Part shown: positions 28,473 through 50,805 of the stretch, one piece after another
Position numbering within the stretch: position 1 is the stretch's first letter
Layout: every line of letters begins with the position of its first letter
NCBI GenBank assembly: GCA_944391115.1
Contig: CALXSJ010000022.1
Coordinates: forward strand, 1 to 50,805
Source of the DNA: an uncultured Victivallales bacterium
GTDB taxonomy: Bacteria; Verrucomicrobiota; Lentisphaeria; Victivallales; UBA1829
DNA: 50,805 nt
Reading direction: 5' to 3'
The notes under the pieces: model-generated
Told to the model about the DNA's origin: nothing
Seen by the model: only the letters and a program-made list of their open reading frames with translations
Database searches by the model: none
Translations under genes and position numbers: made by a program

Positions 28473-28545
28473 GCGGCAGGACTCACGGGAAAGCGCGAAG
28501 CAACTTATGGAAAGAACGCCCGCTTCGCATGCGTCCGTCCATGCG
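28473..28545 (+). repeat. Diverged copy of dispersed intergenic repeat, with hairpin
   Basis: Positions 28473-28500 match the core of the dispersed repeat seen near 32.1 and 50.4-50.6 kb (GCGGCAGGACT, AC, GGAAAGC, CGAA, three differences over about 25 nt). A 6-bp hairpin with arms CGCATG and CATGCG lies at 28526-28545. The element lies just beyond the 3' end of the MFS gene. Confidence 0.6.
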
Positions 28546-31222: not shown

Positions 31223-32077
31223 ATGAGAACGCATGCAATGGGGGAAATGACCGTCAAGGAGATCCGCGAGTATCTCAAAACCAATCAGACGATCATCCTG
31301 CCCTACGGCGTCGTCGAGCAGCACGGCTACCATCTGCCGCTGAGCATGGACATTCACAATGCGGAGGTTCCGTCCTACGCGCTGGCGGAAAAACTCGGCT
31401 GCATCGTCGCCCCGCCGCTCAACTACTGCTTCTCCGGCGGCCAGCTTCCCGGCACGATCAACGTGCGCCCGACCACCTTCTGCGCCATGGTCTGCGACAT
31501 CGTCGAATCCCTTGCGAACCAGGGATTCCTGAACATCCTGATCTTTCCCGGACACGGGGGAACGGAGAGCCTGGATCAGCTCCGGGAGTCCCTGCGCATC
31601 CTGAAATGGCTCAATCCCGCGCTGGAAAAAGTCATGATCATGATTCTCCGCCGGGGCGAATTCTGGCAGCGGCCGAAGGAACCGGGAAGGACCGGAAGCG
31701 ATTTCCATGCGGGCGACGCCGAAACCTCTCTGATGCTGGCATACCGGCGGAATCTGGTTCAGCTCGATCAGCTGGAACTCGACGAAAAAGAACTCGCTGA
31801 AAAAATGCGCCACGATCAGAATGCATATCAGATCTGCACGACCCTCAGCGGAAGACCGCAGGAGATCGCCACCACGCGCCAGCGCCCCGAAATCAAGGTC
31901 GGCGTCATGGGATATCCGGAAGACGCAACGGCGGAGCGCGGAATCGAAAATCTGGAAAATTCCATCGCGCCGATGGCGGAAATGCTCCGGCAGGCAATCG
32001 CCGAAGCCGAGGAAAACCGCAGAACCGGAAAACGCATTGAAGTGCAATCCCCCGTGCTCGGAAACAACGGAAAATGA
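31223..32077 (+). CDS. Creatininase-family amidohydrolase
   Basis: The 284-residue protein has the creatininase metal site: E32 and H34 in VVEQHG, D43 and H45 in SMDIHN, H111 and E115 in PGHGGTES, and the motif HAGDAETSLML. The family includes creatininase and enzymes of flavin, riboflavin and mycofactocin pathways, so creatinine is not necessarily the substrate. GGAGG precedes the start. It is likely cotranscribed with the upstream GntR gene and regulated by it. Confidence 0.88.
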   Translation: MRTHAMGEMTVKEIREYLKTNQTIILPYGVVEQHGYHLPLSMDIHNAEVPSYALAEKLGCIVAPPLNYCFSGGQLPGTINVRPTTFCAMVCDIVESLANQGFLNILIFPGHGGTESLDQLRESLRILKWLNPALEKVMIMILRRGEFWQRPKEPGRTGSDFHAGDAETSLMLAYRRNLVQLDQLELDEKELAEKMRHDQNAYQICTTLSGRPQEIATTRQRPEIKVGVMGYPEDATAERGIENLENSIAPMAEMLRQAIAEAEENRRTGKRIEVQSPVLGNNGK

Positions 32078-32200
32078 ACTGCCGCGGGGCTATGCCCGCG
32101 GAATTTTGGAATTCCGCCTGCGGCGACCGGCTTGCGCAGCTGGACCGCGACAGGACTGACAGGAGAGCACGAAGCTTTTTTGCGATGCATGGCATCGCGG
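32078..32200. repeat. Chain of hairpins containing a dispersed repeat copy
   Basis: Between two convergent genes, five hairpins follow one another: 7-bp arms CCGCGGG/CCCGCGG (32082-32101), CGGAATT/AATTCCG (32099-32116), CGCC/GGCG (32115-32125), CCGGCT/AGCTGG (32127-32143, one G-T) and GCGATGC/GCATCGC (32182-32198). Positions 32115-32173 match the repeat at 50559-50617 at about nine of ten positions. No gene was seen here. Confidence 0.75.
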
Positions 32201-32243
32201 GATTCAGCTTTTTAAAAACGGAAGTCTCGTCCGCGGGAATGCG

Positions 32244-49480: not shown

Positions 49481-50329
49481 ATGAAACACACAATTCTGCT
49501 CTTTGCCGCCTGCGCGCTTGCCGCGTCCGTCAGTCTGTATGCAAATGACAGGGAAAATCTGGCCCGCGGCGCAACAGCGACGGCAAGCTCCTCGCAATCC
49601 GGAGAATTCGCTCCGAACAAAGCCATCGACGGTCGGGGCAACACCCGCTGGGCTTCCAACAGAAATGACAACGAATGGTTCATGCTCGATCTGGGCGCGC
49701 CGAAAACAGTCGGACAGATCCGCCTTGACTGGGAAGCCGCCGCAGGCAAGGAATATGTCATCCAGTTTTCCAATGACGGAAAAAACTTCACGGACGTCTA
49801 TCAGGTGACCGACGGCCGCAGAGGAGCCCGCGAATTCATCAATCTCAAGCCGCAGGAAACCCGCTACATCCGCATTCTCGGCAAGAAACGCGCCTCGCAG
49901 TTCGGCTACTCGCTCTGGGAAGTCATGGTTTATCCCGCCACGGACAATCTGGTCTTCGGTGCAACCGCGACGGCAAGCTCGACGGATCAGAATCTTCCGC
50001 CGGAAAAGGCCATCGACGGCAGGGAAACCACACGCTGGACCTCCAGACGGAATGATAATGAATGGTTCACTGTGGACCTCGGAACAGCAAAGAACATCGG
50101 CAGAATCGTGTTGAAATGGGAATACGCCGCAGGCAAGGAATATACCGTCCAGCTCTCCGAAGACGGCAAGAACTTTACGGAAGTCTTCCACAAGAAAGAC
50201 GGAAAATCCAAAGCCACGGAAAATATTGTCATCACTCCCCGGAATGCCCGTTACATCAAGATCCAGGGCATCAAACGCGCCACACCTTACGGCTATTCGC
50301 TCTGGGAAGTGGAAGCATACGCGAAATAA
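49481..50329 (+). CDS. Secreted protein with two tandem F5/8 type C (discoidin) domains
   Basis: The 282-residue protein has a signal peptide (MKHTILLFAACALAASVSLYA) and two similar discoidin domains (about residues 26-152 and 155-282). Both contain A-T-A-T-A-S-S, AIDG...TRW, NDNEWF...DLG, AAGKEY and YGYSLWEV or FGYSLWEV. Discoidin (CBM32-like) domains bind sugars at the cell surface. No enzyme domain is attached, so it looks like a pure binding module. AAAGGAAAAA precedes the ATG. Confidence 0.88.
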   Translation: MKHTILLFAACALAASVSLYANDRENLARGATATASSSQSGEFAPNKAIDGRGNTRWASNRNDNEWFMLDLGAPKTVGQIRLDWEAAAGKEYVIQFSNDGKNFTDVYQVTDGRRGAREFINLKPQETRYIRILGKKRASQFGYSLWEVMVYPATDNLVFGATATASSTDQNLPPEKAIDGRETTRWTSRRNDNEWFTVDLGTAKNIGRIVLKWEYAAGKEYTVQLSEDGKNFTEVFHKKDGKSKATENIVITPRNARYIKIQGIKRATPYGYSLWEVEAYAK

Positions 50330-50372
50330 TAAACTGCCCCGGTACAACGCACACGCTCGTACCGGGGGGGTT

Positions 50373-50460
50373 GCCTCCGGCGGCCAGCTTATGCAACTGG
50401 ACCGCGGCAGGACTGACAATCCTGCATAAATCATAATCTGCAAAGCAAATTATTTCATTA
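50373..50460 (+). repeat. Dispersed repeat copy 1 of a local pair
   Basis: It begins GCCTCCGGCGGCCAGCTT and contains GCGGCAGGACTGACA and the GCAAAGCAAATTATTT tail, all shared with the copy at 50559-50655. The CCAGCT/AGCTGG and AATTTGC/GCAAATT stems each carry a mismatch here. Confidence 0.8.
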
Positions 50461-50462
50461 CG

Positions 50463-50549
50463 GAAAAATGCGCCAGCATTTTTCGCGGGGTCAAGGGCCT
50501 TCTGGCCCTTGGCGTGCTCCAGCGGCGAAACGCTGGGCGCGCTTCGCGC
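50463..50549. repeat. Four consecutive perfect hairpins
   Basis: Hairpins are GAAAAATGC/GCATTTTTC (50463-50484), CAAGGGCC/GGCCCTTG (50492-50511), CCAGCG/CGCTGG (50519-50536) and GCGCG/CGCGC (50537-50549). They lie between the two repeat copies. Confidence 0.8.
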
Positions 50550-50558
50550 GAAATCATC

Positions 50559-50662
50559 TGCCTCCGGCGGCCAGCTTACGCAGCTGGACCGCGGCAGGAC
50601 TGACAGGAAAGCACGAATCATAATTTGCAAAGCAAATTATTTTATTACAGAAAAAATGATTC
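50559..50662 (+). repeat. Dispersed repeat copy 2 of a local pair
   Basis: Perfect stems CCAGCT/AGCTGG (50571-50587) and AATTTGC/GCAAATT (50622-50638) are present, the latter nested within GAATCAT/ATGATTC (50615-50662). The first 58 bases match the copy at 32.1 kb at about nine of ten positions. Confidence 0.8.
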
Positions 50663-50689: not shown

Positions 50690-50727
50690 AAAAAAAAAGA
50701 CCGGAGGACGCTTTTGACGTTCTCCGG
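50690..50727 (-). terminator. rRNA operon terminator
   Basis: On the minus strand arms CCGGAGAACG and CGTCCTCCGG (one mismatch) are followed by TCTTTTTTTTT, just after the 5S rRNA 3' end. Confidence 0.85.
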
Positions 50728-50738
50728 CCGGAAAGAAA

Positions 50739-50805
50739 TCCCGGCGTCTAACTACTCTCCCGCACTCGAGTGTGCAGTACCATCGTCGTGGAGGTTCTTA
50801 ACGAT
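50739..50805 (-). rRNA. rrf: 5S ribosomal RNA, partial (5' part beyond window)
   Basis: The minus strand reads GTTAAGAACCTCC, then CGATGGTACTGC, then GGGAGAGTAGTTAGACGCCGGG, split here by key motifs; this matches the 3' half of bacterial 5S rRNA, including the GCCGGG that closes helix I. The 3' end is near 50739. The 5' portion and any 23S gene lie outside the window. Confidence 0.88.

Follow-up and report, generated by a model that had tools for sequence, protein, structure and literature searches.

A hairpin-rich, gene-less repeat family in Victivallales, probably of non-autonomous IS200/IS605 type

Our study concerns a composite palindromic repeat at positions 50372-50655 of a 50,805-nt stretch of DNA from an uncultured Victivallales bacterium (the window). 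With a probability of roughly 0.8, we attribute this locus to a non-autonomous single-strand transposon of the IS200/IS605 type (PATE, palindrome-associated transposable element), of which it would be an old copy with a decayed end. Its probable membership in the family described here rests on homology to intact copies, since its own right end, guide and target are unreadable.

Architecture of the repeat locus

Flanking the locus are a discoidin-domain gene and, on the opposite strand, an rRNA operon, each with its 3' end towards the element; a second copy lies further upstream in the window. The features are as follows:

32073-32214, plus strand: second copy of the element, solo and degenerate, with left end AATGAA
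49481-50329, plus strand: upstream host gene, an ORF of 282 amino acids with F5/8 type C (discoidin) domains (Pfam PF00754, E 4.7e-53)
50328-50371, plus strand: left terminal part of the element, with AATAAA at 50328-50333 and then the hairpin CCCCGGTAC/GTACCGGGG at 50337-50367
50372-50468, plus strand: unit A, first copy, with the core hairpins and then an AT-rich hairpin at about 50433-50453
50459-50553, minus strand: unit B, an inverted variant unit with the four gap hairpins
50463-50484: gap hairpin 1, GAAAAATGC/GCATTTTTC
50492-50511: gap hairpin 2, CAAGGGCC/GGCCCTTG
50519-50536: gap hairpin 3, CCAGCG/CGCTGG
50538-50550: gap hairpin 4, CGCGC/GCGCG, read off the sequence
50559-50655, plus strand: unit A, second copy, with a perfect AATTTGC/GCAAATT hairpin at 50620-50640 and a broken GCAGGACT stem
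50701-50727, minus strand: terminator-like hairpin of the rRNA operon (hairpin and T run on the minus strand), outside the element
50739-50805, minus strand: 3' part of the 5S rRNA (RF00001, truncated), ending at the contig end, outside the element

The two-copy repeat described in a preliminary description of this DNA, and the composite palindromic nature which it suggested for the element, are borne out: the direct repeat spans 97 nt (50372-50468 and 50559-50655), with 88% identity and starts 187 nt apart. The four perfect hairpins which that description placed between the copies are present, but they are not separate items; together they make up a third unit, a variant of the other two in inverted orientation, giving the arrangement A(+)-B(-)-A(+). 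When read as the reverse complement, the gap hairpins follow the order of parts in the flanking copies, namely GATTTC, a short hairpin, CCAGC../..GCTGG, and a third and a fourth hairpin. Stems perfect in one A copy and mismatched in the other had also been described, and we find them in both directions, with GCAGGA/TCCTGC intact in the left copy only, and AATTTGC/GCAAATT and CCAGCT/AGCTGG in the right copy only. The claim that all copies share one orientation fails at the inverted middle unit, although the solo copy at 32073-32214 does match. At 28473-28499 a short stretch (GCAGGACTCACGGGAAAGCGCGAA) matches part of the unit A core in diverged form and is seemingly a remnant.

The left terminal part at 50328-50371 is similar to one variant of the left end, 'AATRAACTGCCCCGGTGC..GTATCGGGG', that occurs in other copies; the locus retains the older AATRAACTGCCCCGG type of left end together with its A-B-A cargo, and no right terminal hairpin, guide or target of the kind seen in intact relatives is recognisable there. 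The stop codon TAA of the discoidin-domain gene (50327-50329) abuts the element, and in the solo copy AATGAA provides the TGA stop (32075-32077) of a creatininase-family ORF (31223-32077). A position past the 3' ends of genes had been reported for the copies in the window, and both elements there begin at a stop codon (50327-50332; 32075-32077); in other parts of the genome, some copies are situated upstream of a gene or downstream of a tRNA. The alternative that the sequence is a known rRNA-operon spacer feature, which the preliminary description had allowed for, does not apply to a locus that lies 3' of the operon and past its terminator.

The locus is unusually rich in structure, with 14 nested hairpins of at least 6 bp; 100 mononucleotide shuffles average 1.4 and never exceed 6, and all but one of 50 segments of the same length elsewhere have 9 or fewer. 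Its folding z-scores are -5.75 on the plus strand and -7.58 on the minus strand. At the gathering score Rfam has no match in the window, and at lax thresholds over the element it returns only chance-level matches besides the truncated 5S rRNA (17.7 bits, E 0.54, under the gathering score; a similar stretch is present in the related genome G003). A tRNA scan found no tRNA. As a main role, a terminator was discarded after a simple scan found no terminator-like site inside the repeat at 50372-50655.

Family distribution and insertion sites

The core of the unit occurs at least 54 times in the draft genome to which the window belongs (G000, 3.66 Mb in 44 contigs). A 156-nt intact element has 53 matches in this genome, 18 of them at 99-100% identity over 152-156 nt, and among the matches listed there are 47 in G001 and 50 in G003, both genus mates, and 1 in G002; these copy numbers are lower bounds, the draft assemblies being broken at the element repeats. 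Three genomes of a second genus of the same bacterial family (G012, G019 and G024) have 8-25 diverged matches each, and the 18 other genomes of that family have no matches to the element. A pattern scan of named genomes has two MAGs among the matches listed (uncultured Victivallales bacterium and uncultured Lentisphaeria bacterium). Several contigs of G000 (C17, C25, C34 and C35) and many in G003 end within or beside element copies. The copy at 50372-50655 is found at the same place in G001, where it is 98% identical, and no copy follows the orthologous gene of G003; it is therefore an older insertion.

Intact members of the family start with AATNAATTACC and end with T7G(A), and copies of about 150 nt carry terminal hairpins. 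Their ends are sharp, with AATAAATTACCGCG on the left and, on the right, either TTTTTTTGA or TTTTTTTG, after which comes AATGAA or AATAAA. The search for empty sites suggested in the preliminary description was productive, as the empty sites of related species define the ends of the element at four loci. At L044 the filled site reads CTCAAGA, the element (AATAAATTACC..TTTTTTTGA) and AATGAACCGCGC, and the empty site in G001 is CTCAAGAAATGAACCGCGC. The insertion L156 of G003 consists of GCAA, the element (AATGAATTACC..TTTTTTTTG) and AATCATAAG, with GCCAAATCATAAG as the empty site in G000 and G001; L170 of G001 consists of GAAAG, the element (AATCAATTACC..TTTTTTTTG) and AATAAATCC, with GAAAGAATAAATCC as the empty site in G000; and L034 has an empty site in both G001 and G003. 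Three further loci (L046, L043 and L045), whose automatic alignments were unreadable or rearranged, were left out of this evidence. The insertion point lies directly 5' of a host AATN'A(A), with neither duplication nor deletion of the target; the right hexamer is host sequence, and the left hexamer is the element's own. Since the host base, as the empty sites demonstrate, is not carried along when the element is copied, solo insertions are largely separate observations.

An A-B-A cargo of identical type to that of our locus is found between complete ends in L315 (G000 C12, about 330 nt), which has guide T and an AATAAA target. Other forms were also seen. L316 (G001 C11:93700-94400), around AATGAATTACCGCGATGCCGTGCATCGCGGTATGAACTGA, is a terminal-only form, about 50 nt long, in which the two terminal hairpins seem to have been fused. 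Head-to-tail arrays of 2-3 elements occur at L029/L056 (G000 C19:2741-3153) and L169 (G001 C1:53471-53881), as if later copies had inserted at the AATRAA beside an earlier copy. Next to unit A, several copies (L003-L011 on G000 C3 and C5) have an additional repeated module (GAGAGCTCCGGGC..GGTTGGAACCGCC).

Guide-target pairing and stop codons

Read on the minus strand, an insertion runs from the host TTN'ATT through a linker of 14-15 nt, TTNATACC, the hairpin GCGATGC/GCATCGC, the cargo, NATACC and a second hairpin to a TTNATT end. Within the guide region, TATNAA, the guide base lies at +17 in subtype 1 and at +18 and +16 in others, and faces target base -4. In 50 of 64 solo insertions this base and the host target base make a Watson-Crick pair, T being found with AATAAA, C with AATGAA and G with AATCAA (T:A 26/28, C:G 8/16, G:C 16/19, one other). 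None of 20000 within-genome shuffles reached this degree of pairing, and G000 alone, compared for T or C guides against A or G targets, gives a Fisher p of 0.0075; the rule had been noticed in part of the data before counting, so that these p-values do not come from a blind test. At the other end, 48 of 54 cases show a guide base that matches the element's own terminal hexamer; shared descent contributes to this agreement, as both partners lie inside the element. The two main young subtypes of G000 are one internal base apart, this base is the guide, and their targets differ to match. The remaining 14 of the 64 solo insertions are unpaired at the guide base, some of them in young copies. L048 (G000 C1:270756) and L129 (G001 C23) are young exceptions with guide C beside AATAAA, possibly through mutation of the guide after insertion or a tolerated mismatch.

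The element's TNA forms the end of an upstream frame open for at least 90 codons in 14 of 38 solo copies, compared with 6 of 76 control frames. As the element carries TAA or TGA at its left end, a gene entered at its stop codon still terminates there: at L044 the TGA of the gene is replaced by the element's TAA, and at L156 the gene end AAA TCA TAA becomes AAA TGA. The preference for stop codons may in part be a matter of tolerance rather than targeting, AT-rich words being hit there without harm; in the window background, a gene stop is found at 8 of 47 AATAA and at 1 of 117 AATGA.

These data suggest a model for the spread of the family. A Y1 (HUH) transposase acting in trans would cut a single strand at guide-paired sites, circularise the element and insert it 3' of TTN'ATT on the minus strand. 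Where the AAT(A/G)A of a stop codon is hit, the TAA or TGA of the gene would be replaced in frame by the element's own; such insertions, their stop restored by the left-end AATAAA or AATGAA, would be tolerated and so could accumulate at gene 3' ends. Single-base changes of the guide would have shifted subfamilies among AATAAA, AATGAA and AATCAA targets.

Origin of the family and its relation to known elements

Among the closest parallels are the PATEs of Haloquadratum walsbyi (PMC3119063), which are likewise short and gene-less, with near-terminal palindromes, a conserved terminal oligonucleotide, no target duplication and strain- or species-specific insertions; terminal-only forms are known there too (52-bp core-deleted elements, compared with L316 here), and the IS200-type transposases of the same genome are mostly pseudogenes. 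The family described here differs in that it can carry a structured A-B-A hairpin cargo, has subfamily guides with matching targets and often targets stop codons; its palindromes, moreover, could be tied to no resident IS605-type transposon in the draft assemblies. None of G000, G001 and G003 yielded an intact Y1 transposase in a search with PF01797: G000 and G001 have decayed fragments only, G003, with its roughly 50 near-identical element copies, gave no significant match, and intact IS200 is present in G002 and G012. Decayed IS200-type Y1 stretches in G000 lie at C35:25416-25862 and, more weakly, at C28:28960-29198. The IS200 tnpA loci examined in the clade are without element-like ends, the end pairs of G000 and G001 revealed no long autonomous version and none of them spans a gene, and no partner with matching ends was found in the draft assemblies, which are incomplete and often break at these repeats. 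The Haloquadratum PATEs pose the same puzzle over their partner (PMC3119063).

The layout of the ends also resembles that of IS608 (PMC5934647), with a left-flank target, a linker of about 14 nt, a guide 5' of the left hairpin and a second 5' of the right hairpin, and a right-end cleavage site inside the element; the guide base +17 facing target base -4 corresponds to the A+17 that pairs with T-4 in IS608 (PMC5934647). In contrast to IS608, the family has neither tnpA nor tnpB, and its target is TTN'ATT instead of TTAC.

Some features are shared with REP and BIME elements: these too are multicopy extragenic palindromes without genes, in composite units of alternating orientation, and their proposed mobilisation by TnpA-REP (REPtrons) involves Y1 enzymes that may also use a guide-like tetranucleotide (PMC8266576). 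Even so, we consider it unlikely that the repeat is an element of this type, with a domesticated, REP-associated Y1 transposase (RAYT) as the agent of its spread, as the GTAG-type tag is absent at the hairpin foot, the element has two defined ends and inserts as a whole unit at a target of 5-6 nt that stays in the flank, and neither a RAYT nor an intact Y1 gene was found in G000, G001 and G003. Less probable still is an origin as a MITE from a classical DDE transposon, or as a cassette of a site-specific recombinase with palindromic ends that arose by chance. The terminal hairpins together do resemble an inverted repeat (TTACCGCGATGC .. GCATCGCGGTATTAA), and the left AATNAA and right AATN'AA look like a short direct repeat; however, the empty sites are free of target duplication, the two hexamers are often unequal (AATAAA/AATGAA, AATGAA/AATCAA), which argues against both a duplication and a recombinase requiring identical overlaps, and the guide, which is not mirrored but precedes both hairpins on their 5' side on the same strand, predicts the host base. 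Because the left and right hexamers need not agree, we also discarded a tyrosine-recombinase route.

The cargo raises the question of whether the hairpin array is instead a selected device, such as a stabiliser of transcript 3' ends or a terminator, with copying as a secondary matter. Copies are frequently found past gene ends, and the covariation for which the preliminary description proposed a test is present: it is strong in unit B and modest in the unit A core. Counted over 68 distinct copies from fetched loci, identified by BLAST with the four gap hairpins, all four hairpins of unit B stay paired through compensatory changes, with one pair having 45 A:T, 19 G:C and none broken, a second with 27 T:A, 30 C:G and 6 other, a third with 35 G:C, 15 T:A and 1 other, and a fourth with 35 T:A, 17 C:G and 3 other. 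Pairing in the CCAGC stem of unit A reaches 96.5%, with two pairs altered on both sides, but the third core stem (GCAGGACT) is broken in about half of the distinct copies. Covariation of this kind can have either selection or template switching as its source, the latter perfecting stems at quasi-palindromes without selection; given also that the scan for terminator-like sites inside the element was negative and that insertion polymorphism marks the element as mobile, we regard a selected device as very improbable.

The preferred reading, a non-autonomous IS200/IS605-type transposon, involves a mechanism of a known kind. The preliminary description had suggested an element outside the common repeat classes; its ends, guide-target pairing and lack of duplication fit palindrome-associated non-autonomous IS200/IS605 elements, but in the searchable literature we found no description of the family or of its target switching. 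The family itself, its structured A-B-A cargo, the replacement of stop codons and the one-base guide switches look new. A bolder reading, which we put forward as doubtful, is that this gene-less family lives at stop codons by recognising them through base pairing, inserting and returning the stop in frame, that it has split into natural AATAAA, AATGAA and AATCAA lineages by single-base guide changes, and that its covarying cargo makes it a movable 3'-end module for the host.

Retargeting of IS200/IS605 elements through a change of the guide has been achieved by design in the laboratory (PMC5934647); among the closely related subfamilies described here, guide and host target base change together, and retargeting appears to have taken place in nature. 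The evolution of guide and target can thus be tested directly from genomes. For a transposon, targeting stop codons and then replacing them provides a route to near-harmless insertion, and the family offers many natural guide-target pairs for studies of single-strand DNA integration.
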